From Verrucomicrobiota bacterium (GTDB lineage Bacteria > Verrucomicrobiota > Verrucomicrobiia > Chthoniobacterales > UBA6821): DNA of 19,442 bases. Below the pieces are notes generated by a model that did not search any database, had not been told where the DNA came from, and worked only from the letters and a program-made list of their open reading frames with translations. Shown piece by piece: positions 1 through 18,193 of this stretch. Made by a program: the position numbers and the translations under genes. Location: NCBI GenBank assembly GCA_016871655.1, contig VHCR01000004.1, positions 1-19,442 of the forward strand, read 5' to 3'. Position 1 is the stretch's first letter, and each line of letters begins with the position of its first letter.

Positions 1-635
1 AGCCTCAAGGCTTCCAACGTCCACAACAACAACATCGGCGAAATCACCACAGCAATTTTTGTATAACTCAACGCCATCGCACTCGCCGCTAACCCAAGTC
101 CCACCATCTCGCGCAGTGATTCCTCTTCCGACAACACGAAAATCCCTCGCAAGATCAGCGGCATAAAAACAAAACAGAGCGTCACACTGAAGTGCTCATA
201 AAAGGCCATCGCCACCGTAATCGACGGCATCATCATGTAGGCTAGAGCCGCCACCGCCGCCTGCGTCTCATCCCGCGTCAAACGACGCACAAAGAAAAAC
301 ATTGTCACGCCGCTGGCGGCCCAAGAAACAATCGTGACCAGTTTAAAAGCTGCAAGCCCTCCAATCAAAGGTTCAAAAATAGTGATAAATAAATTGGAAA
401 TTAAAATAATCCATGCAGCAACCTGCTGAATCACCAAATTACCTCCCAAAAGAAAATGCGGACTCCACCCTGAAAAAGATCCATGCCTAATATCCCACAA
501 CCTTCCCGTGTCACCAAAGGCTTCTTCAGCCGAAGGTGCTTGGAAAAGCCACGCCACTGCAACAATAAAAAGAAAGAGAGTACCGACTCCAAAAAGAAGT
601 TTCGTTAGAAATGAATGATCATGGTTTTTCAACAT
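1..635 (-). CDS. Multi-pass membrane protein, N-terminal part (runs off left edge)
   Basis: I read this frame by hand from the ATG at 635 to base 3 without a stop, about 211 residues, so the 3' part of the gene lies outside the window. It begins MLKNHDHSFLTKLLFG, followed at once by a hydrophobic helix. A soluble loop with SAEEAFGDTGRLWDIRHG and a Gly/Leu-rich stretch come next, then several more hydrophobic helices. This layout (one TM, an extracytoplasmic loop, then dense TM segments) resembles polyprenyl-phosphate-sugar-using GT-C glycosyltransferases and YfhO-like membrane proteins. It lies downstream of the lipid-linked-sugar glycosyltransferase, which supports a role in polysaccharide assembly. 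Family assignment is inference; membrane topology is seen directly. The Shine-Dalgarno is weak (GAG near -15). Confidence 0.72.
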   Translation of the reverse strand, partial: MLKNHDHSFLTKLLFGVGTLFLFIVAVAWLFQAPSAEEAFGDTGRLWDIRHGSFSGWSPHFLLGGNLVIQQVAAWIILISNLFITIFEPLIGGLAAFKLVTIVSWAASGVTMFFFVRRLTRDETQAAVAALAYMMMPSITVAMAFYEHFSVTLCFVFMPLILRGIFVLSEEESLREMVGLGLAASAMALSYTKIAVVISPMLLLWTLEALR

Positions 636-1712: not shown

Positions 1713-2801
1713 TTACAAACCTCTTGAATAAATAACTTCTCTAAAATGCGAACCGGTAATATGTGGTAAATCGATATGATCGATAGAAATCATTTGATCT
1801 TTGATGCATTCTTTTGTGATGCGATGTCCATATTTTCCAAGCATCAATTCGCGACAAGAGATTTGTCCTTTTTGTAAAGGAATGGCCATATAAATATCTT
1901 CTTCTGTTAATAAATCGCCTGCCTTGAGGTCTCTTTTTGCATAGACGCCGCGAATATAAGAATCCAAATAATTAGTTTCTTTTTCAAGAGGCACCTTGCG
2001 AGCACTGCTCGAGGTTCCACAAAATTCCACTGTCTTATGAAAAGCTCGAAACCAAGTATCTATTTGGTCGGGCAATGAAGAATAAGAAGCAACATTAAAG
2101 CCATCGGAATTAATATCAATGTGTCGTTCAAACGTTCTTGCTCCTTTTGCATAGGCAATAGCAATTGATGTATGCCAATCTTTATACTCGTGAGAGGAGT
2201 ATCCTATCGTATGTCCTGGATAACGATTTTTTAAAAAATCTATTTGCCCCAATTCAGCCTCTGAATCTTCATGGGGATAAGCTGCAACACAATGATTGAT
2301 CGCCAATGGAATATTACGATTTTCAAAAAACAAAACGACATCATCCATGTCTTTGAGAGGAGTTCCCCCAAAAGAAATAATGCACGGTTTTTTTGTGGCT
2401 GCAATTTTTTCTAACAACATCCAATCATTAGAATCAGCGCTGGCAATCTTAATAATAGGCAAATCAAACTCCACACACCAATCTACTGAACTCTCATCAA
2501 AAGGAGTCGCCATTGGAATACAACCACTCTTAGTAATTGCCTTGATGAGAATGGCGTATTCTTCTTTAGAAAGACGACTGCTTTGTAAACGATTAATATA
2601 ACGAATTTCTAAACGTTCACGAAAGTCTTGATGAATGAAATTATGAACATCTCGAAACTGAAGTTTAATAGCAGCTCGAATATTATTACATCGAACAATA
2701 CGACTGTGTTCTTTAATAATTTGCAATCCTCGATCCAAATTCCCTTGATGATTATTGGTCATCTCAAGAACAAATAAATTTTCAAAAACATCACGATTCA
2801 T
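1713..2801 (-). CDS. Divergent NeuB-family sugar-acid synthase with C-terminal SAF domain
   Basis: This 362-residue protein has the NeuB TIM-barrel condensing domain followed by an antifreeze-like SAF domain (about 280-345). Family marks are EMTNNHQGN (13-21, matching the usual AEIGxNHxG), KLQF (46-49), TPFD (99-102), KIASAD (118-123), NHC (169-171), GYSSHE (200-205) and ERHID (225-229). NeuB enzymes condense phosphoenolpyruvate with an N-acyl amino sugar to give sialic-acid-like nonulosonates. Here the usual KHFTLD...DH stretch reads ERHIDINSDGFNV, so a standard hexosamine substrate is doubtful. No CMP-sugar synthetase (NeuA) lies in the window. It sits in the operon after the cyclase, with an 82-bp gap, and 2 bp before the glycosyltransferase. 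Membership of the NeuB/SAF family is confident; substrate and product are unknown. Confidence 0.85.
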   Translation of the reverse strand: MNRDVFENLFVLEMTNNHQGNLDRGLQIIKEHSRIVRCNNIRAAIKLQFRDVHNFIHQDFRERLEIRYINRLQSSRLSKEEYAILIKAITKSGCIPMATPFDESSVDWCVEFDLPIIKIASADSNDWMLLEKIAATKKPCIISFGGTPLKDMDDVVLFFENRNIPLAINHCVAAYPHEDSEAELGQIDFLKNRYPGHTIGYSSHEYKDWHTSIAIAYAKGARTFERHIDINSDGFNVASYSSLPDQIDTWFRAFHKTVEFCGTSSSARKVPLEKETNYLDSYIRGVYAKRDLKAGDLLTEEDIYMAIPLQKGQISCRELMLGKYGHRITKECIKDQMISIDHIDLPHITGSHFREVIYSRGL

Positions 2802-2883
2802 AAATGGTTTTTACTTGCATGTCACTTTTTAGTTTCTATCACAAGCGACAAAAAACGTTTGTTAAGTAAGAGCGTTGTGCAGG

Positions 2884-3969
2884 TTAATGCCAAGAAAAAA
2901 TATTTTCTAGGTTAAAATAGTCTTGCACGACTGATTCCAACTCACGATCCAGTGGCGTTGGAACAATATCTACATGACCTGGTTGTTTGAGAAGAATGAG
3001 TGCAACGTTGCCTCCTGTAGCTTTTTTATCTTTTTTCATACCATTGATCAACTCAGCTGCAGAGCAAGATTGCGAAAGATCACTTTGAAAATGAACCTTG
3101 ATGAAATCATGAATCATGCGATAGCACTCTTCCGATAAAAATCCTTTTCTCATCGAAACATAATTGGCGATATCAACTCCCCAAGCGACAGCAAGACCGT
3201 GAGGAACGGCGTGGTTCGTAATTGCTTCGAGGGAATGGCAAAAAGTGTGGCCATAGTTGAGGATACGCCTCAAATCAGCTTCGTACTCGTCTTCTTCAAT
3301 GATTCTTTTTTTAATTTCGAGACTCTTTTGAATAAATTCTAAAATTCTTTTATTTCTAAAACCATGAGCTGTGATTTCTTTTTTTAAAATCTCAAAAGAA
3401 TTTTCTCCATCGATTAAAAATAATTTTAAAATTTCCCCATATCCTGAACGAAGATCATAATCGGACAAGGTCGATAAAAATTGTTCACCAACCAACACTC
3501 GCGAAGGGGATTGGAAAAATCCCAATTGATTTTTAAAAGCATTCAAATTAATCCCGCACTTCGCTCCAATACAGCTGTCAGCCATGCTCAACAAGGTTGT
3601 AGGAACATATATCCAAGAAACTCCACGGTGATAAATGTGCGCCGCAAAGGTTGCTATATCCTGAATCACGCCACCACCGATAGCCACGATCGTGGCATTC
3701 TTGACCGCCTTTTCTTGTTGTAAAAAATTTAGAAGCCGTTCTATGCCAGCCAATGTTTTTTCACTTTCTAAAGCTGGTGCAAAATGAATGGGAAATTTTT
3801 TTAAGGATGAAAAAAATTTTGGATACAATTCATAAACAGTTGGGTCAACGATGAGAAAACAATCTGCTAATAAATTTAATTCTTCAGCAAGAGCGTCCAG
3901 TGAAGAAAAAAAATCAACATTATAATTCCCCTGCCCTGAATGAATACAGAGTTGTTGTTTTACTGACAT
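2884..3969 (-). CDS. 3-dehydroquinate-synthase-like sugar-phosphate cyclase
   Basis: This 361-residue AroB-superfamily enzyme needs NAD and a divalent metal. Visible marks are GGGVIQD (98-104), YHRGVSW (113-119), VPTTLLSMADSCIGAKCGIN (122-141) and GYGEILK (176-182). LNYGHTFCHSLEAI (237-250), PHGLAVAWG (256-264) and KKDKKATGG (312-320) complete the set. The probable metal ligands E179, H241 and H257 are in the AroB positions. It differs from housekeeping AroB in several blocks, for example GYGEILKLF rather than AEVIKYG and HGLAVAWG rather than HGEAVAIG. The start overlaps the SDR stop by 10 bp, so it is translated within the ThDP-SDR-cyclase operon. Placement among sugar genes suggests a dedicated cyclitol or modified-sugar step, but true shikimate-pathway AroB cannot be excluded from one window. 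Confidence 0.82.
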   Translation of the reverse strand: MSVKQQLCIHSGQGNYNVDFFSSLDALAEELNLLADCFLIVDPTVYELYPKFFSSLKKFPIHFAPALESEKTLAGIERLLNFLQQEKAVKNATIVAIGGGVIQDIATFAAHIYHRGVSWIYVPTTLLSMADSCIGAKCGINLNAFKNQLGFFQSPSRVLVGEQFLSTLSDYDLRSGYGEILKLFLIDGENSFEILKKEITAHGFRNKRILEFIQKSLEIKKRIIEEDEYEADLRRILNYGHTFCHSLEAITNHAVPHGLAVAWGVDIANYVSMRKGFLSEECYRMIHDFIKVHFQSDLSQSCSAAELINGMKKDKKATGGNVALILLKQPGHVDIVPTPLDRELESVVQDYFNLENIFSWH

Positions 3970-4643
3970 AGATAACCTCCATCGATGGGGACAGCAGCGC
4001 CGGTAATAAATGTATTTTTTTCTGAGCCCAAGAAATAGACGAGCTCCGCAACCTCTTCGGGTTGACCAAGACGCCTCATCGGCACAGAATCAATCATTGA
4101 TTCAATCACTTTTGGCGTGTTATTTTGGTAAGTCAAATCAGTAGCAATAAATCCAGGAGCAACCATGTTGACCAAAACGCCATGAGGAGCAAGTTCTATG
4201 GCTACACTTCTCATCATGCCTAAAAGGCCACCCTTTGTTGCTGCGTAACTGGTGCGACCAGCTCGACTGACAAAGGCTGCAATAGAACCAATGTTGACAA
4301 TACGTCCCCATTGACGTTGAGCCATCGCAGCACCAAAAGCTTTCATCAACTGCAACGGCGCTGTTAAATTAATTTGTAACATTCGCAACCAAACGTCCTC
4401 TTCTATTTCCTCCAAAGGCGCCACAATATTTTCTGCTGCATTGTTGATCAGGACATCAATGGAATCGCATTGATGTTGCTCGGTCCATTGAGCAAGACTC
4501 TCTGGCTTGCTTAAATCAAGCTGACTTCGTGTTGGTGCAATGATATACCACCCTGCACGACGATAGCGTTCAGCAATAGCAGCTCCAATGCCACGACTAG
4601 CGCCTGTGATTAAAACGGTACGATTCACAGAATGGTTTTTCAT
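3960..4643 (-). CDS. Short-chain dehydrogenase/reductase (SDR, FabG-like)
   Basis: This is a 227-residue classical SDR. The Rossmann motif TGASRGIGAAIA is at residues 14-25 and NNAA at 67-70. The catalytic Ser-Tyr-Lys set is about S120, Y133 and K137 (YAATK), and the C-terminal tail GAAVPIDGGYL is typical. It reduces a ketone or oxidises an alcohol with NAD(P)H; the substrate is unknown. Its ATG overlaps the stop of the ThDP enzyme by 4 bp (ATGA) and its own stop overlaps the cyclase start by 10 bp, so all three are probably translationally coupled and act in one pathway. By analogy with YerF, the reductase acting after the ThDP enzyme YerE in yersiniose synthesis, it may reduce the keto product of the preceding enzyme. 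That role is inference. Confidence 0.87.
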   Translation of the reverse strand: MKNHSVNRTVLITGASRGIGAAIAERYRRAGWYIIAPTRSQLDLSKPESLAQWTEQHQCDSIDVLINNAAENIVAPLEEIEEDVWLRMLQINLTAPLQLMKAFGAAMAQRQWGRIVNIGSIAAFVSRAGRTSYAATKGGLLGMMRSVAIELAPHGVLVNMVAPGFIATDLTYQNNTPKVIESMIDSVPMRRLGQPEEVAELVYFLGSEKNTFITGAAVPIDGGYLCQ

Positions 4644-6439
4644 GAATGTAAGAATCTATTTTTCTCTAATTCTTCGCGAGACAAAAATGGAGCCATATCT
4701 TCAAGATTTGCGGTCACCATTGTTCCATCTTCTAACTTGCGTGAGGAAAGTTTTGGTTCAAAGGCTTGATCTAAATTTAAAACAACTTCGGTGATGCTTG
4801 CGCGAGGATGAGCAAGCGCCTCTGCAATAATTTTAGGAACAGAAGCATGATCTTCTACTCGTTGATAACTCATTTCAAATGCTGCTGCTACTTTTTTAAA
4901 ATCAGGAAAACTGAGCCCAGATTCAGTTCCGCATCCAACAATATTATCTGCGAAAAAATTCCCCTGAGTTTGCCGAATCGAATGATAACCACGATTATTT
5001 AAAATAAAAATTTTTACTGGCAACTTGTGATGCACGATCGTCTGAAGTTCTTGGAGATTCATCATGATGCTCCCATCTCCTGCTAAACAAATGAGACGCT
5101 TACGATCTGGAAGAGCGATTCCAGCACCAATTGCTGCTGGCAAATCATATCCCATCGACGCACAACCTGAATTGTGAAAAAGACGTTGACCGTTTTTAAT
5201 GATGGCAGCTTGGAAGGCAATCACACAGGCTGTTCCATCACCACAAGCGATGACCTCATGAGACTCGAGCTGCTGAAAAAGTTGCTTCATAAAGTAGTAA
5301 GGGTTCACATTGTTGTGATCTTCCTTCATTTTTGAAGTCACTGGAGGATAAAACTCGAGCCTTTCTCGGCACCAGTCAAGCCACTGCTCGTGATGAGGTT
5401 TCCACCGCTGCGATGCTTCCAACAATAATGGCAAGGCCTCGCGTAAGTCTGCATGAACGGGCACATCGATTTTCAATGTTGGCTTTTTTAATTCCGCTGT
5501 ATCAATGTCGATCATGGCGATTCGCGCTTGTTTCGCAAAATTTTCCCAATTGTAAGAAATCAATCTGATATTGAGGCGACACCCTAGCACCAAGACAAAG
5601 TCAGCATTCTGAACGGTAAAATTTCCAGCTCGATTGCCAACGGATCCAGGACGCCCAGCATAACAAGGATGATCATCTGGAAGAAGATCATTAGAATTCC
5701 ACGCTGTTACGACAGGAATTTTCAAATGCTCAATCAATTTTAAAAAATTGTCATACTGTCCTGATAAACGAATTCCAGTTCCAGCGTAGATGACAGGTGC
5801 TTTGGCGATTGAAAGCTGTTCAATAATATTCCCAATAACTTTCCTCAGATTTTTTGTTTCAAATGTTATTTGGTCTTCCTTCGGATCATAACCTTCAAGT
5901 TCCTCAATATTAATCAAGGCCCCTTGGACATTGATCGGCACATCCAGCCAGACCGGACCAGGACGCCCATAGGAAGCTAAATGCAAAGCACGTTCTAAGT
6001 GATATCGAATCGTTTTTGGATCTTGAATGACGACTCCATATTTTGTAATTCCTTGCACCATCTGCACGATATCAACTTCTTGATCGCCAAGTTGTCGCAG
6101 TGGCAAATTTGTAGAACGAACAAGCGTTTCCCATTTTGCTTGTCCGGAAATAACAATCATTCCCATCGAATCCACATAAGCTCCAAAAACTCCATTAATC
6201 GTATTAATCGCACCAGGACCCGCTGTCACATTCACAGCAGCTAAGCGATTCGTGAGACGAAAATAACTCTCTGCCGCCATTGCACACGCTTGCTCGTGAT
6301 GGCAACAGGTGATTTTCATTTTTTGAGAACGCCCAAAAGCATCATTGAGATGCATCGCAGCTCCTCCGGTCACCATGAAAACATCTTTGATCCCATGCTC
6401 CGTTAATTTTCGAACAATGTAGTCAGCGACTCGTATCAT
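4640..6439 (-). CDS. Thiamine-diphosphate-dependent enzyme, acetolactate-synthase-like
   Basis: This 599-residue protein has the three domains of the acetohydroxyacid-synthase/pyruvate-oxidase family. The N-terminal Pyr domain carries the catalytic glutamate in CCHHEQACAMAAESY (E49). The middle domain has PVIYAGTGIR, and the C-terminal PP domain has the GDG(454-456)...NN(481-482) ThDP/Mg motif. The C-terminus (KLSSRKLEDG...PFLSREEL) resembles ThDP enzymes of polysaccharide loci rather than ilvB. It heads an operon with an SDR, a cyclase and a NeuB homologue. No regulatory subunit gene (IlvN/IlvH) is near, arguing against branched-chain amino acid synthesis. One precedent is YerE, which adds an acetyl-derived two-carbon branch from pyruvate to CDP-4-keto-3,6-dideoxyglucose; RfbF/G/H in this window would make that acceptor. 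Fold and cofactor are confident; the reaction is inferred. Confidence 0.88.
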   Translation of the reverse strand: MIRVADYIVRKLTEHGIKDVFMVTGGAAMHLNDAFGRSQKMKITCCHHEQACAMAAESYFRLTNRLAAVNVTAGPGAINTINGVFGAYVDSMGMIVISGQAKWETLVRSTNLPLRQLGDQEVDIVQMVQGITKYGVVIQDPKTIRYHLERALHLASYGRPGPVWLDVPINVQGALINIEELEGYDPKEDQITFETKNLRKVIGNIIEQLSIAKAPVIYAGTGIRLSGQYDNFLKLIEHLKIPVVTAWNSNDLLPDDHPCYAGRPGSVGNRAGNFTVQNADFVLVLGCRLNIRLISYNWENFAKQARIAMIDIDTAELKKPTLKIDVPVHADLREALPLLLEASQRWKPHHEQWLDWCRERLEFYPPVTSKMKEDHNNVNPYYFMKQLFQQLESHEVIACGDGTACVIAFQAAIIKNGQRLFHNSGCASMGYDLPAAIGAGIALPDRKRLICLAGDGSIMMNLQELQTIVHHKLPVKIFILNNRGYHSIRQTQGNFFADNIVGCGTESGLSFPDFKKVAAAFEMSYQRVEDHASVPKIIAEALAHPRASITEVVLNLDQAFEPKLSSRKLEDGTMVTANLEDMAPFLSREELEKNRFLHS

Positions 6440-6620: not shown

Positions 6621-6642
6621 AGAGAGAGAGAAAGAGAGAGAG
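6621..6642 (+). repeat. Dinucleotide tract (AG)5 AA (AG)5 at the 5' end of the methyltransferase gene
   Basis: Twenty-two bases of AG repeat interrupted by one AA lie between the ATG at 6572 and the methyltransferase reading frame, which is out of phase with that ATG. Adding one AG unit, or removing two, would join the ATG frame to the frame that encodes VCPCCNHQ and the rest of the enzyme. Such tracts are typical slipped-strand switches, but one genome copy cannot show variation. Confidence 0.65.
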
Positions 6643-6701: not shown

Positions 6702-7442
6702 ATGCCTTTTGTTGCTCATCGGGCTTTAGGTCATGCACCGATAAAAATCGATGAAACATGGGGACTAAAAACTGTTCCAATAGGAATAGCCTACACATTA
6801 TGCCATTCAACCTTTTGTTCAAATTGCAGTTTTCTTTTTTTAGATATGCGGTTTTCAGAAAGAGAGCTCTCATCACTCTACGAGGGATATCGAGAGAAAG
6901 AATACACCAAGTTGAGAGAACACTATGAACCCGGTTATAAAAATCGGAATGACATACTAACTGGAGGAGTGACCTACCTACCTCAAATAGAAGAATTTCT
7001 CACACCTTTTCTCACTTTTCCCATTAAAACACTAGACTGGGGAGGAGATACTGGTAGAAACACCCCCTTTAAAACCAAAAACTCCCTATTGCACATTTAT
7101 GAAATCAACAACAAGCAACCGATTCAAGGTGCCAAGGTCGTCGATAAAAAAATTATTTTAAAAACCAGTTACGATCTTATTGTCTGCAGCAACGTCTTGG
7201 AGCACGTTCCCTACCCCTCGGACTTACTTCTAGAAATCAAAGAAGCCATGAACCCCGAGACAATCTTATATCTTGAAGTTCCTTTTGAAGAAATCATGCA
7301 GCACGCCAATGGAGATAAAAATCTTCACTTAAAAAAACGCCACTGGCACGAACATATCAATTTCTATTCAGAAGAATCCCTCCGTCGATTGGTTGCGAAT
7401 TGTGGTTTTGATGTTATTGCCCTAAATAACTTAAACGCTTGA
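6702..7442 (+). CDS. Class I SAM-dependent methyltransferase with N-terminal zinc-ribbon; probably disrupted or phase-off
   Basis: The listed ORF (246 residues) is a fragment of a longer gene. In the same frame upstream, bases 6651-6674 read VCPCCNHQ, a zinc-binding CxxC knuckle that pairs with CHSTFCSNC inside the ORF. No ATG, GTG or TTG lies between that knuckle and the upstream stop at 6573. The conserved stretch LDMRFSERELSSLYEGYREKEY follows, then the Rossmann SAM domain (TLDWGGDTGRNTPF, DLIVCSNVLEHVPYPSDLL, LYLEVPFE). The TGA at 7440 cuts the frame early: 17 more in-frame codons (GGANTSYLFQIACKLSR) run to a TAA ending at 7496, three bases from the convergent epimerase gene. The original gene was probably about 6572-7496 and methylated a sugar or its lipid-linked form. 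Being on the plus strand, it is not part of the neighbouring operons. Confidence 0.7.
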   Translation: MPFVAHRALGHAPIKIDETWGLKTVPIGIAYTLCHSTFCSNCSFLFLDMRFSERELSSLYEGYREKEYTKLREHYEPGYKNRNDILTGGVTYLPQIEEFLTPFLTFPIKTLDWGGDTGRNTPFKTKNSLLHIYEINNKQPIQGAKVVDKKIILKTSYDLIVCSNVLEHVPYPSDLLLEIKEAMNPETILYLEVPFEEIMQHANGDKNLHLKKRHWHEHINFYSEESLRRLVANCGFDVIALNNLNA

Positions 7443-7499: not shown

Positions 7500-8528
7500 T
7501 TATTTTAGCCAATCAAAATATCTCCTCACTCCCTCTTCAAGCGTCACCAGCTCTTTCAATCCCAACTCTTCCTGCGCGCGCTTCGTGCTAGGAACATAAA
7601 ATGAAGTTTTGCCGCCGATGCCAATTTGGATTTTTTGTTGAGGGTCCAAAGTTTCACGCACGAGCTCGGCGAGTGCTTTGATGCTGATGCTTCGCTCTGA
7701 GCCCACGTTGTAGGGGCGACACGGTTCACCTTGAAATAAAATCGTCCAGAGCCAGATCATCAGGTCGGCAGCATAGAGGTAGGAGCGCTCAGAGCCACCG
7801 TCACTTTTGATAACAATCGGTTTTTTTTCTAAGGCGTCGCGCAAAAAATTCCCGATCGCAAAATGAGCATCAAGCGGCAGGTGTGGTCCGACAAAGGCGA
7901 AACAGCGCGCAATCGTCGTTTCGAGCGAATGGTTCTCATGATAAATTCGGCATAATAATTCAGCGAGACGTTTTCCTTCGCCATATGCAGAGCCAGCTTT
8001 CATAGGATCGGGAGCAGTTTGATCTTCTTCCGAAAAATAATATTGCGCTGATGGCGCCTCACCATAAATGGCACCGGAGCTGACAAAAAGAAATCGTTTT
8101 GCTTCACAGGCCACTCCAAAGTCAAGCGCTCGCCGCGTTCCGCGCGTGATAGTTTCCAACATTTCCAATGGCGGAACGGGCGCACTGGAAGTTGTTCCTG
8201 CATGAATGATGTGAGAAAATTTTTCTTTTGGAAAAATAAAATCTCGGACATCGCCAGCATGCATTTTGATTGCTGGACTTTTAACGATGTGAGGCGCTTT
8301 TGCCGCAAAAGCAGCAGGATCACGACTGAGCCCTACGAGTTCTGCTCCTAAATCCAATTGCTCATTCGCATGCAAAAAAGTTTCCAACAACCACATTCCA
8401 AAAAAACCAGTCGCTCCCGTCACAAAAATCCGACCTCCGCGAAGCTGCTCCCAGAGTGGCTTCGTGTACATTAAGACATGCTCAAGATCTTCTTGAGGAA
8501 GTGTCTTTGAAATTTTATTTTTACTCAT
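7500..8528 (-). CDS. NAD(P)-dependent nucleotide-sugar epimerase/reductase (extended SDR)
   Basis: A 342-residue extended SDR with the Rossmann motif GATGFFG (38-44), SSGAIYGE (150-157), the Tyr/Lys pair in AYGEGKRLAE (Y182, K186), and a C-terminal substrate domain containing YNVGSERSISI. The ATG at 8528 is preferred; the frame extends to a TTG at 8582, but that part overlaps the toxin gene. The stop of toxin A (8521-8523) lies just inside this start, giving an 8-bp overlap and probable translational coupling. Members of this group act on NDP-deoxysugars as 4-reductases, epimerases or dehydratases. With rfbF/G/H nearby, it may reduce CDP-4-keto-3,6-dideoxyglucose, as CDP-abequose or CDP-paratose synthases do. 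It is not close enough by eye to name as either. Confidence 0.85.
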   Translation of the reverse strand: MSKNKISKTLPQEDLEHVLMYTKPLWEQLRGGRIFVTGATGFFGMWLLETFLHANEQLDLGAELVGLSRDPAAFAAKAPHIVKSPAIKMHAGDVRDFIFPKEKFSHIIHAGTTSSAPVPPLEMLETITRGTRRALDFGVACEAKRFLFVSSGAIYGEAPSAQYYFSEEDQTAPDPMKAGSAYGEGKRLAELLCRIYHENHSLETTIARCFAFVGPHLPLDAHFAIGNFLRDALEKKPIVIKSDGGSERSYLYAADLMIWLWTILFQGEPCRPYNVGSERSISIKALAELVRETLDPQQKIQIGIGGKTSFYVPSTKRAQEELGLKELVTLEEGVRRYFDWLK

Positions 8529-8829
8529 AAGGTAGAATATTTGGAGTTCCTCGAGCCGTATGCCAATACCGAAGAACTTCAATTTTTTTGTTCAACAAAT
8601 CAACGTAATAAATCACTCTATAATTTTTTACAATGATCTCTCGTATGGCATGATGATTAAACTCAGGAACAACTCGACCTATTTCGGGATGCCTGCCAAG
8701 TATTTTTGTCTTCGCACGAAGCAGTGATACAAAACGCTGCGCAATAAAAACAGAATCACGGGCAATATATCGCTGAATCTCTCTAAGATCATGTCGAGAC
8801 CCAGGAGTAACGGCTACTTGGAAAACCAT
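8521..8829 (-). CDS. ParE/RelE-superfamily toxin (TA module A)
   Basis: A 102-residue basic protein. Family marks are RHDLREIQRYIARDS near the N-terminus, KTKILGRHPEIGRVVPEF in the middle, and AIREIIVKNYRVIYYV...IEVLRYWHTARG at the C-terminus. The conserved R-E-x3-x2-NYR-IY core is typical of ParE-type toxins, which act on gyrase or, in RelE relatives, on translating mRNA. The start overlaps the antitoxin stop by 16 bp, the usual antitoxin-first order. It resembles toxins B and C of this window but is the most divergent and has a short extra C-terminal tail (NILPYE). It overlaps the start of the epimerase gene by 8 bp, so read-through transcription would serve both. Confidence 0.87.
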   Translation of the reverse strand: MVFQVAVTPGSRHDLREIQRYIARDSVFIAQRFVSLLRAKTKILGRHPEIGRVVPEFNHHAIREIIVKNYRVIYYVDLLNKKIEVLRYWHTARGTPNILPYE

Positions 8830-10894: not shown

Positions 10895-12391
10895 CTATTT
10901 TTTATTTTTAATGAAAGTCCTAATAGTTTCTATTTCATACTCCAACATCGCTTGCGTTAGCCCTGGATAAGTCCCAAGAAAAAAAGCACTACTCATGATT
11001 TCATCAGCTCCAGAGAGGCTTCCTACGACGCGCAGCGCGTGAGGGCGATCTTTTTTCAACTGCACAAATGCTGGCTGCCGCAAGAGATTGCCTCCAAAAA
11101 ACATTCGCGTCCCAATTTTTTTCTCTTCGAGATAACGCGCGAGATCCGTGTGAGAAAAGGGTGCTGTTGATTTCACGCGCAACATAAATCCAAACCACGA
11201 GCAGTTACTCCGATGTCCAGAGTCATCCCAACTGAACGTACCATCTTGATTCCAGCTGGTCGCATGAGTCGGCAAAGAAAATTCAAAAAAATCTTCCAAG
11301 TCTGCTAATCCTGCACGCAAGATCTCCCAGTTTTTTTTCCGAGCCTCAATAAAAGATGGCAACTTCTTGAGCTGCTCACGTCCAATAGCAGCTTGAGGGT
11401 CGAGTGGCTTCAAGTTGTACCCAAAATGACTGTAAATATATTTGTGATCATATCCCTTGGGCAACTCTCCCAACTGCCAGCCAAAACGTTTGTTGCAGGT
11501 ATTATCCTTGCCGGAAGCACACCAGCAATCGCGCCCCCAGTCGCGAAAGCTCTCTGCATAAGACTTGAGCGGCGGACGTGAAATGATATTAACCGCTCCT
11601 CCCTCCCCCATCGTGAGATGATGCGGCGGATAAAATGATTGCGTAGAAAGATCCCCCCACGTTCCAGTATAACGCGTAATATTTTTTCCATCGCTAGGAA
11701 TTCCAGGAGAATTTTCGGTGATGCCCAATTTTTTAGCACGCTCGAGCGGCATCGAGTAGGTAGAACCAAGCGAGTCACAATTATCTTCGATCAGCCAAAG
11801 TCCGTGACGTCGACAAAATTCTAAAACCATGCCTAAGTCAAAAGGATTTCCAAGTGCATGAGCCATCATCACGGCTTTTGTTTTTCCTTCACAAAACGCT
11901 TCCTCTAACAATGCAACATTCATATTTCCAGTCGCAGGATTGTTGTCGAGAAAAACAGGAATCGCTCCACATTGAATGATCGGTGTCACCGTTGTTGGAA
12001 AACCAGCCGCGACAGTGATCACCTCATCTCCAGGCTGCAAACGCTGATGGGAAGGGAGTTTGTGGGTGGTCAACGCTGAGAGCGCGATCAAATTTGCTGA
12101 AGAACCTGAATTCACCAAAAGCGTATGTTTGACACCAAGAAAAGCTGCCAACTCTTTTTCAAAGGCTGCTCCTTGCTCTCCCAACGTCAGCCAAAAATCA
12201 AGCGTGCTTCCCACCGCTGCCTCTACTTCATCAGTATCAAAGACGCGACCCGCATAGGAAATCATCGTTTCACCAGGAATAAAATCAGCTTCTTTTTTTG
12301 AAGCTGGTAAATTCGCTTGATGCATGAGCGAAGAGTATTCTCGCGTGAGACGAAGGATTTCTTTTTTCAATTCAGCAGGAGTTTTGTTCAT
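10895..12391 (-). CDS. rfbH: CDP-4-keto-6-deoxy-D-glucose 3-dehydrase (E1/RfbH/DdhC)
   Basis: A 498-residue PMP-dependent [2Fe-2S] enzyme that removes the 3-hydroxyl from CDP-4-keto-6-deoxyglucose, together with a reductase (E3) not found here. Marks are the NSGSSANL cofactor site, PGDEVITVAAGFPTTV, and SFYPPHHLTMGEGG, where His (about 258) replaces the usual PLP lysine as in E1. The iron-sulfur cysteines are in RDCWCASGKDNTCNKRF (about 289, 291, 299). The ATG at 12391 is chosen; the frame extends 27 codons upstream to a TTG, but that part is encoded by the CACAAAG repeat. The protein is longer than classic DdhC (about 437), partly through an insert around residues 213-240 (PLERAKKLGITENSPG). 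It lies downstream of rfbG and rfbF. Confidence 0.93.
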   Translation of the reverse strand: MNKTPAELKKEILRLTREYSSLMHQANLPASKKEADFIPGETMISYAGRVFDTDEVEAAVGSTLDFWLTLGEQGAAFEKELAAFLGVKHTLLVNSGSSANLIALSALTTHKLPSHQRLQPGDEVITVAAGFPTTVTPIIQCGAIPVFLDNNPATGNMNVALLEEAFCEGKTKAVMMAHALGNPFDLGMVLEFCRRHGLWLIEDNCDSLGSTYSMPLERAKKLGITENSPGIPSDGKNITRYTGTWGDLSTQSFYPPHHLTMGEGGAVNIISRPPLKSYAESFRDWGRDCWCASGKDNTCNKRFGWQLGELPKGYDHKYIYSHFGYNLKPLDPQAAIGREQLKKLPSFIEARKKNWEILRAGLADLEDFFEFSLPTHATSWNQDGTFSWDDSGHRSNCSWFGFMLRVKSTAPFSHTDLARYLEEKKIGTRMFFGGNLLRQPAFVQLKKDRPHALRVVGSLSGADEIMSSAFFLGTYPGLTQAMLEYEIETIRTFIKNKK

Positions 12392-12427
12392 AAAATTTGT
12401 TACTACCAATGTAGTCCAATCAGAAAG

Positions 12428-12486
12428 AAATTCACCACAAAGATCACAAATGCCGCTAAAGCGGCAACACAAAGATCACAAAAAAA
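12428..12486 (+). repeat. CACAAAG-family structured repeat, copy 1
   Basis: The plus strand reads AAATTCACCACAAAGATCAC, a hairpin GCCGCT-AA-AGCGGC (12452-12465), then ACACAAAGATCACAAAAA. An inverted copy lies at 12603-12660. This copy lies upstream of the rfbH start codon and creates a spurious N-terminal extension of that frame. Confidence 0.75.
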
Positions 12487-12580: not shown

Positions 12581-13738
12581 TTAGATTTTTTCTATAGAAA
12601 AAATCTTTTTGTGTTCTTTGTGTGTGGCGTAGCCACTTTGTGTTCTTTGTGGTGAATTTCTGACCTCTTCTGCGTCCGCTTCATAAGCCGCAATCTGTTT
12701 CCGGGTTGTGGCCAGTGCGCTCTTCGGATCTTCATGGTAAGCACGATACCATTCAACAGTCCGCTCGATTGTTTTTTCAAAATTCCAAACAGGGTGCCAT
12801 CCTAAAACTTCTCTCGCTTTTTTAATCGAAAGATTGAGATGTCGGGCTTCATGCGGTGCAGTTGGATCACTCACATCCTTCCAAGAACCTGACCAGTGTT
12901 TTAAAACTTCACTCACCACATCGATAACAGAATAATTTTCTTTTGGATCAGGTCCAAAATTAAAGGCTCCGGCTAGTTCGCGATCTTTATGTAATTTAGC
13001 TCCCAACATTAAGTAGCCGCAAAGTGGCTCCAGAACATGCTGCCAAGGCCTTACTGAAGAAGGATTACGAACAAGGATTGGCTTGTTTTTTTCTAAAGCA
13101 CGAATTGCATCTGGAACAATCCGATCATCGGCCCAATCTCCTCCACCAATCACATTGCCGGCACGAGCTGTAGCTACATGAACAGTAGAAGTATTGAAGA
13201 AGTAAGAACGTCGATAAGCGGCTGTTGCAATTTCAGCCATCGCCTTGCTGGAGCTGTAAGGATCATGGCCTCCCAAGGGGTGTTCTTCATGATAGGCCGT
13301 CTGATCTTCAAGATTTTCATAACACTTGTCAGTCGTGACCATGACAGCAGCAATGCGTTTGGAAGAAATTTTCTGCAACTCACGCATCACTTCGAGCACA
13401 TGCAACGTCCCCATTACATTGGTTTCATAAGTTTCTATCGGCTCTTGGTACCCATAGCGAACCAACGGTTGAGCCGCTAAATGAAAAACGAAATCGGGCT
13501 CGAATGAGATGATTGATTTTTGCAACTGCTCAAAATTTCGCACGTCCCCAACTTCATGATTCAATCGTAAAGCAAGATTCAATTGATTAAAAAGAGCAGG
13601 AGTCGTCGCTGGTTCCAAAGCGTAACTATGGACCTCTGCACCAAGCTGCAAGAGCCATTCCGCTAGCCATGCACCTTTGAAACCGGTGTGGCCAGAGAGC
13701 CACACTCTCTTGTTTTTATAAACGGTAGAAAAATTCAT
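12581..13738 (-). CDS. rfbG: CDP-glucose 4,6-dehydratase (RfbG/DdhB), C-terminus recoded by a repeat
   Basis: A 385-residue extended SDR that turns CDP-glucose into CDP-4-keto-6-deoxyglucose. Marks: LSGHTGFKGAW at the N-terminus, HLAAQPLVRYGYQEP, TTDKCYEN, and the catalytic Tyr/Lys pair in DPYSSSKAMAE, followed by ARAGNVIGGGDWA and VRPWQHVLEPL, both diagnostic for this enzyme. The start is the ATG at 13738, not the in-frame GTG at 13765. The last 26 or so residues (NSPQRTQSGYATHKEHKK...) are read through an inverted CACAAAG repeat and a palindrome, so they are not native enzyme sequence. The core domain is complete, so the enzyme is probably active. It follows rfbF after a 158-bp gap and precedes rfbH. 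Confidence 0.94.
   Translation of the reverse strand: MNFSTVYKNKRVWLSGHTGFKGAWLAEWLLQLGAEVHSYALEPATTPALFNQLNLALRLNHEVGDVRNFEQLQKSIISFEPDFVFHLAAQPLVRYGYQEPIETYETNVMGTLHVLEVMRELQKISSKRIAAVMVTTDKCYENLEDQTAYHEEHPLGGHDPYSSSKAMAEIATAAYRRSYFFNTSTVHVATARAGNVIGGGDWADDRIVPDAIRALEKNKPILVRNPSSVRPWQHVLEPLCGYLMLGAKLHKDRELAGAFNFGPDPKENYSVIDVVSEVLKHWSGSWKDVSDPTAPHEARHLNLSIKKAREVLGWHPVWNFEKTIERTVEWYRAYHEDPKSALATTRKQIAAYEADAEEVRNSPQRTQSGYATHKEHKKIFSIEKI
12583..12606. other. 24-bp perfect palindrome at the 3' end of rfbG
   Basis: Bases 12583-12606 equal their own reverse complement (arms agattttttcta / tagaaaaaatct). The palindrome covers the stop codon and the last codons of rfbG. It could form a hairpin or cruciform, and it lies at the inner edge of the inverted repeat copy at 12603-12660. 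Confidence 0.7.
12603..12660 (-). repeat. CACAAAG-family structured repeat, copy 2 (inverted, inside rfbG 3' end)
   Basis: The minus strand reads AAATTCACCACAAAGAACAC, a different hairpin GTGGC-TAC-GCCAC, then ACACAAAGAACACAAAAA. Outside the hairpin it matches copy 1 except for single T/A changes and a few bases next to the hairpin. It encodes the terminal residues of RfbG. Confidence 0.75.
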
Positions 13739-13793
13739 AGCAGAACTAACTTTCAAAAAGATCACATAAATTAAAGTGTCGTGTCGTTGTTGA

Positions 13794-13896: not shown

Positions 13897-14664
13897 TTAC
13901 CAAACTTTCCACGGAGCTTCCCCCCTCCTCCAAAGGTCCTCGAGCAATTGTCTGTCACGCAAGCTATCCATCGGCTGCCAAAAGCCACGATGCTGATAAG
14001 CGTTCAATTCTTTTTCTTGCGCTAGTTGCTGGAGTGGCTCTCGTTCCCAAATCATTTGATCATGCTTGATGTAATCCAACACGCTAGGTTCTAAAACAAA
14101 AAATCCTCCGTTAATCCAACCTCCATCTCCCTCTGGCTTTTCAATAAAGTGAGTGACGCTATTATTTTCAAGGTGCAAGGCCCCGAAGCGCCCGGGAGGC
14201 TGAACAGCGGTCATGGTAGCTTTGCACTTTGAATGCCGATGCGTTTCTAAAACTTTTGGAATGTCAACATCGCCAACTCCGTCACCATACGTCATGCAAA
14301 ATATTTCGTTGTCGAGATAACGAGCCACTTTTTTTAACCGCCCTCCGGTCATCGTCTCCTCGCCAGTATCAACAATCGTCACCTTCCATGGCTCCGCATA
14401 ACGCTCATGAACCTCCATGCTATTTTCCTTCATGTCGAACGTCACATCAGACATGTGGAGAAAATAATTCGCAAAATATTCTTTGATCAGGTACCCCTTG
14501 TAGCCGGCACAGACGATGAAATCGTGGATGCCATGAGCAGAATAAATTTTCATCACGTGCCACAGAATCGGCTTTCCACCTATTTCTACCATCGGTTTTG
14601 GTTTAAGCACGGTTTCTTCGCTAATGCGCGTTCCGAGGCCACCTGCTAGAATGACACATTTCAT
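13897..14664 (-). CDS. rfbF: Glucose-1-phosphate cytidylyltransferase (RfbF/DdhA)
   Basis: A 255-residue nucleotidyltransferase making CDP-glucose from CTP and glucose 1-phosphate, the first step of the CDP-dideoxysugar route. The N-terminal [18 protein letters not shown] and [20 protein letters not shown] are near-consensus for Rfb[44 protein letters not shown] and the C-terminal [15 protein letters not shown] complete the family pattern. Length equals the usual 255-260. It lies 73 bp after toxin B, so it may receive transcripts from the TA promoter; the gap contains a 12-codon remnant resembling the end of the ABC exporter. rfbG and rfbH follow in order. Confidence 0.95.
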
Positions 14665-14696: not shown

Positions 14697-14740
14697 TCAA
14701 TCTTCAATCGAAGAATCTTGCTGCTCTTGCTGCATTTTCA
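14697..14740 (-). repeat. Apparent duplicate of the ABC-exporter gene tail, downstream of TA module B
   Basis: The minus strand reads GAAA then ATG and encodes MQQEQQDSSIED with a TGA stop. The ABC exporter on the other side of TA module B ends KMQQEEKSVDGD with a TGA, also preceded by GGAAA. About 15 of the first 17 bases match. The TA module therefore appears flanked by direct repeats of a gene end. Confidence 0.5.
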
Positions 14741-15034
14741 AATCTCAGGAACCCCTCTGGCTGCATGCCAGTAGCGAAGGATTTCAATGCTTCGTGCAAG
14801 CTCATTAACTTCGTAGATTATTCGATAATTTCCAACAATGATTTCTCTAATACAAGAATGACGAAAATCAGGCACTATTTGCCCCATCCAAGGATGCGTA
14901 GAAAGCTTCTCTGTCTTTATCGTCAGCAAGGTAGCAAAGCGCTCTGCTGCTAAAGGTGAATCGAGAGAAATATAACCAATGATATCTCGAAGATCTGAAC
15001 GAGCTTCAGAAGCAAAAGTTACCTGATAATCCAT
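14738..15034 (-). CDS. ParE/RelE-superfamily toxin (TA module B)
   Basis: A 98-residue toxin with the ParE-type core: RSDLRDIIGYISLDS, KTEKLSTHPWMGQIVPDF, and CIREIIVGNYRIIYEVNEL...IEILRYWHAARGVPEI. By hand alignment it is identical to toxin C at about 63 of 98 positions and less similar to toxin A. The start overlaps the antitoxin stop by 16 bp, as in the other modules. It lies between the ABC exporter and rfbF, on the same strand as both. Activity is expected since the core residues are intact; whether the target is gyrase or mRNA is unknown. Confidence 0.9.
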   Translation of the reverse strand: MDYQVTFASEARSDLRDIIGYISLDSPLAAERFATLLTIKTEKLSTHPWMGQIVPDFRHSCIREIIVGNYRIIYEVNELARSIEILRYWHAARGVPEI

Positions 15035-17896: not shown

Positions 17897-18193
17897 TCAA
17901 ATTTCAGGAACGCCTCGAGCTCCGTGCCAGTAGCGAAGGATTTCAATCCTTTTTTCAAGTTCATTAACTTCGTAGATCACTCGATAATTTCCAACAATAA
18001 TTTCTCTAACACACGGATGGCAAAAATCGGAGACCATACGCCCCATCCAAGGCTGACGCGCAAGCATTTTTGTTTTTGAAAAGAGAAACCGTCCAAACCT
18101 TTCTGCTGCTTGTGAAGAATCTAGCGAAATATAACGTCTGATTTCTTTAAGGTCTCTCTGGGCTTCAGGACCATCAATCACTCGAAAGTCCAT
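17897..18193 (-). CDS. ParE/RelE-superfamily toxin (TA module C)
   Basis: A 98-residue toxin closest to toxin B, sharing the block VREIIVGNYRVIYEVNEL and the C-terminal IEILRYWHGARGVPEI. The N-terminal RDLKEIRRYISLDS and the PWMGRMVSDF region complete the ParE pattern. The start overlaps the antitoxin stop by 16 bp. The stop lies 8 bp before the HAD phosphatase ATG, so the module is inserted directly in front of a metabolic gene, as are modules A and B. Confidence 0.9.
   Translation of the reverse strand: MDFRVIDGPEAQRDLKEIRRYISLDSSQAAERFGRFLFSKTKMLARQPWMGRMVSDFCHPCVREIIVGNYRVIYEVNELEKRIEILRYWHGARGVPEI

Follow-up and report, generated by a model that had tools for sequence, protein, structure and literature searches.

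A predicted C4-branched sugar pathway in a Verrucomicrobiota bacterium that joins a YerE-like carboligase to NeuB-like and AroB-like enzymes

What sugar might a bacterium build when a ThDP enzyme, an SDR, an AroB relative and a NeuB relative are encoded side by side? Is this a pathway of its own, or part of something larger? The question is posed by the window studied here, a stretch of 19,442 nucleotides on contig VHCR01000004.1 of a Verrucomicrobiota assembly (GCA_016871655.1). On its minus strand, a YerE/JanthE-like ThDP-dependent carboligase (positions 4640-6439; Pfam TPP_enzyme_N/M/C) is followed by a FabG-type SDR (3960-4643; PF13561, adh_short_C2, 160 bits), a putative AroB-like sugar-phosphate phospholyase/cyclase resembling TIGR04425 (2884-3969; DHQ_synthase and DHQS_C), a NeuB-like PEP-condensing synthase (1713-2801) and a GtrB/PgfS-like GT2 (781-1710; PF00535, with PgfS as best NCBIfam match at 173.6 bits, below its cut-off). 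The ThDP and SDR ORFs overlap by 4 bp and the SDR and AroB-like ORFs by 10 bp; gaps of 82 bp and 2 bp precede and follow the NeuB gene. Order, overlaps and gaps are as a first-pass annotation had described them, with coordinates that agree. Its statement that the catalytic motifs are intact also stands: the ThDP protein has the canonical GDG, the translated SDR has TGASRGIG and YxxxK, the barrel histidines of NeuB are kept, and the AroB-like residues are conserved.

The answer that we consider somewhat probable, reading from the sequence, is that the product of the cluster is a CDP-activated 3,6-dideoxyhexose with a long, remodelled branch at C4, which is then handed to a lipid carrier. Three minus-strand genes within the window, 4-8 kb from the operon, all score above curated NCBIfam cut-offs: rfbH, for CDP-4-keto-6-deoxyglucose 3-dehydrase (10895-12472; NF011936, 642 bits against 423), whose true start probably lies inside the TTG-started ORF; rfbG, for CDP-glucose 4,6-dehydratase (12581-13765; TIGR02622, 467 against 278); and rfbF, for glucose-1-phosphate cytidylyltransferase (13897-14664; TIGR02623, 465 against 300). 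The reactions of RfbF, RfbG and RfbH that lead to CDP-4-keto-3,6-dideoxyglucose are established, and the three enzymes should supply this compound, the acceptor of YerE- and ErwE-type ThDP enzymes. An extended SDR of the epimerase/dehydratase family (7500-8582, minus strand; PF01370, 116.8 bits) is a candidate for reducing the ketone of the branch; since its ORF runs at the 5′ side into a ParE-like gene, translation probably starts further inside. Between it and the operon, on the plus strand, lies a methyltransferase-type ORF (6702-7442; PF13489, 66 bits), a possible tailoring enzyme whose membership of the cluster is unsure.

Compared against PDB sequences only, the ThDP protein matches JanthE, a YerE-like lyase from Janthinobacterium (PDB 8rph), over nearly its full length with 396 bits, where the second-best sequence reaches 216, and its closeness to YerE is thus judged through this closest solved relative. 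JanthE differs in having CDG in place of GDG, and its physiological substrates are described in PMC12188165 as not identified. A review (PMC12247030) gives CDP-4-keto-3,6-dideoxyglucose as the substrate of both YerE and ErwE and notes that ErwE favours longer donors with functional groups, for instance 4-hydroxy-2-oxo acids; it counts more than 200 predicted YerE-like enzymes, with the sugar structure unknown for the vast majority, and its searched text contains neither the word AroB nor the word NeuB. The yersiniose A and erwiniose pathways share with the present cluster rfbF/G/H-type genes and a ThDP carboligase of the same subclass, but here a NeuB-type donor supply is predicted and an AroB-like/SDR pair is added. 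By analogy with YerE, the ThDP protein is predicted to form a tertiary alcohol from an acyl anion and a ketone; together with the rfb genes around related loci, this suggests that C4 of CDP-4-keto-3,6-dideoxyglucose would receive from it the acyl unit left when a 2-keto acid is decarboxylated.

How constant is this set of genes? ThDP, SDR and AroB-like genes occur together in 25 loci, the window among them, which span at least eight phyla; the co-occurrence in other genomes that the first-pass annotation had proposed as a check is thus beyond chance. The four genes are not, however, the unit that it took them for. The base pathway is best read as rfbFGH, ThDP, GT2 and extended SDR; a NeuB or aldolase gene comes on top of it, and then the SDR/AroB-like pair. 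In a profile search, all three rfb genes were present in 27 of the 37 ThDP loci without an AroB-like gene; in the fetched stretches of the 25 loci with one, at least one rfb gene scored above 150 bits in 18 and all three did in six, and contig ends may account for some of the absences. The GT2, a predicted polyprenyl-phosphate transferase for the finished sugar, was found with the same model in 17/25 and 29/37 loci, respectively, and the extended SDR family in 12/25 and 23/37.

Nor is NeuB the fixed member that it had seemed, as two unrelated aldolase families can replace it, one of them in the identical slot in three loci. Over the 62 ThDP loci, models of the three donor-enzyme families matched NeuB in 14, HpcH in 16 and HMGL in 9; in 23 loci there was no match to these three models, other aldolase families lying outside the count. 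Because the three are exchangeable, with exactly one in 39 of the 62 loci and two in none, the most likely role of the window NeuB is to supply the ThDP enzyme with its donor, a 3-deoxy-2-keto acid. In 20,000 shuffles the mean was 6.95 doubles and zero was never reached; these loci themselves supplied the members for the family models, and they are neither a random nor an independent sample. Among PDB entries, HpaI/YfaU pyruvate aldolases are the closest to the HpcH set, by fold and, weakly, by sequence, and the aldolase part of the HMGL set best matches the NCBIfam 4-hydroxy-2-oxovalerate aldolase, below its cut-off; from all three sets one product class, 3-deoxy-2-keto acids, is expected. 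In the order ThDP-SDR-AroBL-X, the last slot holds NeuB in the window, L038, L059 and L163, and HpcH in L039, L164 and L168. In 7 of 12 loci HpcH does not follow AroB-like but separates ThDP from SDR, and all seven loci with HMGL and AroB-like genes are from Bacillota (the HMGL of L041 is a fragment). The AroB-like tree requires four label changes for NeuB and six for HpcH (three and five forced by starred branches), so the exchange was repeated.

The NeuB protein itself belongs to its family by PF03102 (123.6 bits against a gathering cut-off of 22.1) and to neither equivalog, with 110.3 bits for NeuB_NnaB (cut-off 399.65) and 110.9 for PseI (340.25). Its closest PDB chain, 3g8r (216 bits), is a NeuB/SpsE-like synthase with the same barrel. 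N. meningitidis NeuB has an RPG arginine motif in its SAF domain; in the window NeuB, by eye in alignments, the SAF region is degenerate, the arginine replaced and the motif absent. If the ThDP enzyme uses the product of this enzyme as its donor, the carboxylate of that product is lost as CO2, and the final sugar need not be acidic. An earlier suggestion of a carbocyclic or branched acidic unit is therefore retained in part: an unusual branched, possibly carbocyclic sugar near a polyprenyl-phosphate-type glycosyltransferase agrees with the data, and acidity is not implied.

The AroB-like protein has TIGR04425 (P_lya_rel_AroB) as its best NCBIfam match, at 348.7 bits below the cut-off of 400 (a relative in L048 reaches 446.8), and scores 265 bits against aroB (TIGR01357), below the cut-off of 305. 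By the test that the first-pass annotation had set, a sole copy that groups with housekeeping AroB would have told against the idea; neither is the case, since the genome encodes a second, housekeeping-type AroB on another contig and the AroB-like clade stands apart from 17 housekeeping-type AroB proteins with 100/100 support. Another AroB-family match is present in 14 of the 15 searched genomes that carry an AroB-like gene. The AlphaFold model (pLDDT 92.7) has DHQ synthases as nearest PDB folds, the fold also of 2-deoxy-scyllo-inosose synthase and ValA. In alignments, 21 charged or amide positions are common to the 40 AroB-like and 17 housekeeping proteins; among the AroB-like rows, 17 are kept in 40/40, three in 39/40 and one in 36/40. 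With its fold and its NAD, metal and catalytic residues, the protein falls within the sugar phosphate cyclase superfamily, and is predicted to be a phospholyase/cyclase distinct from housekeeping AroB. It differs from the known cyclases and from TIGR04425 in its sub-threshold score and in its coupling to a ThDP branching enzyme.

Of 40 AroB-like loci, 31 have an SDR gene on the same strand no more than 900 bp from the AroB-like one, and the FabG-type SDR is predicted to reduce the ketone that the AroB-like enzyme leaves. A donor enzyme accompanies 24/25 ThDP loci with AroB-like against 15/37 without (p 7.7e-6), and the SDR/AroB-like pair is an optional add-on to ThDP clusters that have a donor enzyme. 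An FGGY kinase occurs only with AroB-like (8/25 against 0/37), which fits a need to put a phosphate in place. Fourteen of the 40 AroB-like loci match neither ThDP nor the donor models; because four of these have a SIS (GmhA-like) isomerase (L052, L195, L198, L199) and three a CMP-type cytidylyltransferase (L052, L055, L195), the pair can use another substrate too.

How would these parts work together? Beside the CDP-4-keto-3,6-dideoxyglucose from the Rfb enzymes, NeuB would join phosphoenolpyruvate to an aldose or aldose phosphate, giving a 3-deoxy-2-keto acid; related clusters would use a pyruvate aldolase of HpcH/HpaI or HMGL type for this step. The ThDP enzyme, judging from family and context, would decarboxylate this acid and transfer the acyl unit to the C4 ketone, leaving a tertiary alcohol with a branch C(=O)-CH2-CHOH-.... 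The AroB-like enzyme, with its complete DHQ-synthase active site, and the SDR would then remodel the branch: its terminal phosphate would be eliminated, and ring closure or a terminal deoxy end would follow. On a six-carbon branch, the enolate could, by the chemistry of DHQ synthase, close the ring at the ketone of the branch, placing a cyclohexane on C4. The SDR would reduce the remaining ketone, the extended SDR would perhaps finish the sugar, and the GtrB-like GT2 would pass it to polyprenyl phosphate. The ThDP and rfb framework and the donor role of NeuB are the best supported of these steps, the action of the AroB-like pair after ThDP is less sure, and ring closure least so. It counts against this order that we know of no earlier case of an AroB fold acting on a bulky CDP-sugar. 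Only tentatively do we propose that the AroB-like enzyme turns the ThDP-attached side chain of a nucleotide sugar into a carbocycle; 3,6-dideoxyhexoses with a quinate-like ring at C4 would be a widespread, undescribed class of surface sugars, with NeuB, HpcH-type and HMGL-type enzymes as interchangeable donor makers.

Does the ring close at all? After phosphate elimination the enol could become a methyl ketone, which the SDR would reduce to a linear, terminally deoxygenated, caryophyllose-like branch. Enzymes of the DHQ-synthase family follow elimination with an aldol closure, and the checked residues are kept, which makes this outcome rather unlikely, although the frequent SDR partner would suit it. 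Caryophyllose and caryose, from P. caryophylli LPS (caryophyllose also from M. marinum), are, compared by sugar structure, C4-branched 3,6-dideoxy sugars like the predicted product. Caryophyllose has a 1,3,4,5-tetrahydroxyhexyl branch on C4 (PMC5706390), which fits a 3-deoxy-2-keto acid donor, and its C6′ methyl and C5′ hydroxyl (PMC5706390, PMC9026286) favour the linear form. Against it, caryose, carbocyclic according to PMC9026286, shows that ring-bearing sugars of this kind exist, and "quinate" is absent from the main text, as distinct from the full gene lists, of two M. marinum LOS papers (PMC13354803, PMC4703794). The caryose ring joins C4 and C8 and, by its name, has no ring CH2, so that its formation would take more than DHQ-synthase chemistry.

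Or, does the pair act earlier, converting a sugar phosphate into a special aldehyde acceptor for NeuB or the aldolase? The donor enzyme in nearly every AroB-like ThDP locus, the SIS isomerases beside several ThDP-less pairs and the degenerate-SAF NeuB type, found in AroB-like loci only, would agree with this. L047 and L052 also carry the pair with an HpcH/HpaI-type aldolase of another kind (by Pfam in L047, by clustering with it in L052) and no ThDP gene, which fits action before the aldolase. We nevertheless judge it improbable. L167 and L168 are 86% identical in ThDP, 91% in HpcH and 91% in GT2, and SDR and AroB-like genes lie between ThDP and HpcH only in L168; because the closely related L167 cluster lacks the pair, it looks dispensable for the aldolase, although a copy elsewhere in the L167 genome is possible. 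The two loci differ by more than the pair, since the fetched 15.5 kb of L167 has no rfb gene or extended SDR, unlike L168. HpcH proteins from clusters with (12) and without (4) AroB-like also intermix on their tree, and many donor enzymes occur in ThDP loci without it. It is very unlikely that NeuB is a chance neighbour whose product, a common nonulosonic acid of sialic, pseudaminic or legionaminic type, goes into another glycan: its place in PF03102 would allow this, but it falls far short of both equivalog cut-offs (PseI, NnaB), has a replacement in the SAF arginine region and, as the sole NeuB match of the genome (assembly 86.7% complete), occupies the slot of the aldolase in L039, L164 and L168, as does the 72% identical NeuB of L163. 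Hardly credible is a spare shikimate enzyme, which the complete DHQ-synthase active site and fold would permit, given the separate clade, the low aroB score, the second copy and the further AroB-family matches in the other genomes.

The first-pass annotation knew of no named pathway with all four enzymes, and a literature search, with several key papers beyond its reach, found this combination described together nowhere. We read the cluster as a form of C-branched sugar synthesis in which the NeuB and AroB-like/SDR modules are new additions. On this reading a NeuB homologue would have a task other than the synthesis of sialic-type acids, YerE-like enzymes would gain candidates for the natural makers of their donors, and family TIGR04425, whose NCBIfam function is only putative, would gain a context. 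It also offers a rule for uncharacterised glycan clusters: rfbFGH, ThDP and GT2 would form the base, a NeuB or aldolase gene would set the branch, and the SDR and AroB-like pair would remodel it. If ring closure is true, these bacteria would have an enzymatic route to carbocyclic branched sugars.

The five genes of the operon lie on the minus strand of the window, and their order, overlaps and gaps are as the first-pass annotation described them: the ThDP enzyme (4640-6439), the SDR (3960-4643), the AroB-like protein (2884-3969), the NeuB-like protein (1713-2801) and a GtrB-like GT2 (781-1710), with Pfam and NCBIfam agreeing on the family names. The interpretation placed on them, a possibly novel carbocyclic or branched acidic glycan unit, is supported in part. 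Its operon frame was too narrow, as it missed rfbF (13897-14664), rfbG (12581-13765) and rfbH (10895-12472), all minus strand, above curated cut-offs and 4-8 kb upstream of the operon on its own strand, together with an extended SDR (7500-8582) between these genes and the operon. The product of RfbF, RfbG and RfbH is CDP-4-keto-3,6-dideoxyglucose.

Other features surround these genes. Three related minus-strand genes of ~100 aa (8521-8829, 14738-15034 and 17897-18193) form one sequence cluster scattered round the sugar genes, and the one at 8521-8829 matches the ParE toxin family PF05016. A CT-rich simple-sequence tract (~6621-6642, minus strand), lying ~180-200 bp ahead of the start of the ThDP gene, may be prone to length variation. 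Following GT2 at the edge of the window, a partial ORF (3-629, minus strand) with no Pfam match looks by eye like a membrane protein and is a candidate partner of GT2.

In the PDB, the ThDP enzyme comes closest to JanthE (8rph), a YerE-like enzyme (PMC12247030), with 396 bits across residues 2-593 and the next sequence at 216 bits; JanthE has a CDG motif where the window protein has GDG. The substrate to which YerE and ErwE attach an acyl unit is CDP-4-keto-3,6-dideoxyglucose; the donors preferred by ErwE are longer and functionalised, 4-hydroxy-2-oxo acids for example (PMC12247030). ThDP matches at E 1e-80 occur in 67/288 genomes of the phylum, the window genome included, and loci were examined from 40 of the other 66 matching genomes. 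Among the 37 of these loci that lack an AroB-like gene, all three rfb genes are found in 27, GT2 in 29, and the full set of rfbF, rfbG, rfbH, GT2 and extended SDR in 18. Such neighbours around related ThDP genes place the window enzyme in a known kind of pathway, that of C4-branched 3,6-dideoxy sugars. A plasmid search with the ThDP protein returned 11 records (best identity 32.5%, the annotated ones acetolactate synthase). A phage search gave no match.

Which enzyme, then, makes the donor? Clustering of the neighbours revealed two families besides NeuB, one HpcH/HpaI-like and one HMGL-like. PF03328 (HpcH/HpaI) matches 14/14 HpcH members scanned, and 14 of the 16 proteins were aligned; the nearest PDB sequences are, weakly, the YfaU and HpaI aldolases (best E 2.6e-4), and by fold the nearest 14 structures are all class II pyruvate aldolases, though the TM of ~0.5 is modest. 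For the HMGL-like family, the best NCBIfam match is 4-hydroxy-2-oxovalerate aldolase, below its cut-off. For each of the three families, 3-deoxy-2-keto acids are the known or expected products. Among 62 ThDP loci, 14 have NeuB, 16 HpcH and 9 HMGL; exactly one donor gene is present in 39, two in 0, and none of these three families in 23. In 20,000 shuffles, which ignore kinship, the mean was 6.95 doubles and zero was never reached; at a 4-kb radius (33 single, 0 double, 29 none), zero doubles arose in 17/20,000. The ThDP count leaves out locus L087 and sets aside the NeuB of L161 and L147 as canonical, their SAF motif being intact; before the latter step it stood at 40 single, 0 double and 23 none of 63.

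NeuB and HpcH also share a place. The position after ThDP, SDR and AroB-like is held by NeuB in four loci and by HpcH in three; another seven HpcH loci have the aldolase between ThDP and SDR, and the seven AroB-like loci with HMGL are every one from Bacillota. On the AroB-like tree the window stands beside Eremiobacterota and other HpcH loci (96/85), and six label changes are needed for HpcH and four for NeuB, so that the exchange of NeuB and HpcH took place more than once. Three forms of NeuB occur at these loci: with a degenerate SAF part (the window and five others, all with an AroB-like gene); with a C-terminal cupin-type tail, an unusual architecture found near the ThDP gene in L150, L153 and L155-157 (assigned by Pfam in L150 and from the tails in the others); and short, without SAF (L152, L154, L158, L159). 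As one of three mutually exclusive alternatives, the window NeuB is taken to be the enzyme that probably supplies the ThDP donor. The other role considered, supplying the AroB-like enzyme with its substrate as DAHP synthase does for DHQ synthase, was rejected: donor enzymes occur without AroB-like genes, and a keto acid cyclised on its C2 ketone would no longer be a ThDP donor.

The AroB-like protein belongs to a family apart from housekeeping AroB. The first-pass annotation had named, as the case against its own proposal, a sole AroB grouping with the housekeeping enzyme; the window genome carries another AroB, on contig C47, and when 40 AroB-like proteins are placed in one tree with 17 housekeeping ones, the two sets separate at 100/100. 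Two profile models part the sets with no overlap (score difference ≥163 bits versus ≤0), and another AroB-family match is present in 14/15 genomes with an AroB-like gene. Within the same genus, four genomes (G001, G002, G004, G005) have AroB matches at the housekeeping level only and G003 has none. The family is rare: counting the starting genomes, it occurs in 5/387 genomes of its own phylum and in 1/247, 5/349, 1/348, 4/146 and 7/148 of five other groups. The structure model has the DHQ-synthase fold (pLDDT 92.7). With all 40 AroB-like rows taken together, 21 charged or amide positions are common to both sets; position 133 is a clade marker, Cys in 40/40 AroB-like proteins and Ser in 16/17 housekeeping ones. 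A plasmid search gave 54 records, with a best identity of 34.7% among the 20 listed and the annotated ones mostly aroB; an AroB homologue on a Streptomyces plasmid adjoins a DAHP synthase gene and was left out as a cyclase reference.

Of 567 confirmed stretches in a scan of genome contigs, the best 80 were retained; from the loci counted, L219 and L215 were dropped as the same records as L037 and L051, and L062 for equal scores with both AroB models. ThDP and SDR accompany AroB-like in 25/40 loci, window included, from at least eight phyla by record names (Nitrospirota, Verrucomicrobiota, Vulcanimicrobiota (Eremiobacterota), Acidobacteriota, Pseudomonadota, Bacillota, Cyanobacteriota and Elusimicrobiota), in a sample chosen by matches, with profile models built from these same loci and contig ends hiding neighbours. 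An SDR on the same strand lies within 900 bp of the AroB-like gene in 31/40. One further locus, L053, has NeuB at a contig end.

Several comparisons point to the AroB-like and SDR pair as an add-on. A donor enzyme is found in 24/25 loci with AroB-like and ThDP (the one locus without it, L034, lies on a contig of 7.6 kb) versus 15/37 ThDP loci without AroB-like (p 7.7e-6). The best natural experiment, though not a clean one, is offered by two related loci (ThDP 86%, HpcH 91% and GT2 91% identical): the pair lies between ThDP and HpcH in L168 and is absent from that place in L167. L168 also has rfbH, rfbF and the extended SDR, none of which is in the examined stretch of L167, whose genome is 83% complete and may hold the pair elsewhere. 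On the HpcH tree, clusters with the pair (12) and without it (4) are intermixed. Between the window and L163, NeuB is 72% and ThDP 68% identical but AroB-like only 34%, which indicates that the pair also travels as a module.

What might the pair do? If the donor were a seven-carbon 3-deoxy-2-ulosonate (phosphate), the ThDP step would leave on C4 the branch C(=O)-CH2-CHOH-CHOH-CHOH-CH2OP, that is, DAHP with a sugar in place of the carboxyl, and DHQ-synthase chemistry would then form a cyclohexane ring by attack on the ketone of the branch. An FGGY kinase, in 8/25 AroB-like clusters versus 0/37 without (p 3e-4; six of the eight from Bacillota), fits a requirement for adding the phosphate which is lost in an AroB-type elimination. 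HAD phosphatase genes occur both with and without AroB-like, and in one ThDP cluster without it an HMGL aldolase fused to a HAD phosphatase-like domain (L165:10660-12942, minus strand) suggests phosphorylated aldehydes as substrates there. Bradyrhizose has by its structure no ring CH2, which phosphate elimination would leave, and was rejected as the direct product. Caryose is proof that dideoxy sugars branched at C4 can be carbocyclic; it too was set aside as the direct product, since its name in PMC9026286 implies no such CH2. Alternatively, the branch may stay linear: elimination would give a methyl ketone and SDR reduction the branch of caryophyllose, a 3,6-dideoxy-4-C-[1,3,4,5-tetrahydroxyhexyl]-hexose (PMC5706390).

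Against the pair acting on the ThDP product stand the 14/40 AroB-like loci with neither ThDP nor a match of the three donor models, some with a SIS isomerase (GmhA-like; L052, L195, L198, L199), a CMP-type cytidylyltransferase (L052, L055, L195) or an HpcH/HpaI-type aldolase missed by the HpcH model (L047, L052); in L216 and L217 AroB-like adjoins a YjeF-type gene (NAD(P)H-hydrate repair), and in L218 one gene separates the two. Such varied neighbourhoods imply more than one setting for the family, and the pair may also act before the aldolase step. Six of these loci (L047, L052, the Pelagibacter-type L055, L195, L198, L199) hold SDR and AroB-like pairs, with neighbours varying among SIS isomerase, cytidylyltransferase, HpcH aldolase and 2-hydroxyacid dehydrogenase; they possibly represent a second pathway, of cyclitol or heptose type.

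The literature searched contained no mention of TIGR04425 and no paper combining the pathway's enzymes. The searched text of the YerE review names neither AroB nor NeuB (PMC12247030); a prior mention is possible in the in silico list of >200 YerE-like enzymes that it cites and in the papers on ErwE, JanthE and sugar-phosphate cyclases, which lay outside that search. Collectively, the data point to the window cluster as a variant route to C-branched sugars, strongly modular in its gene content and with a putative cyclisation step.
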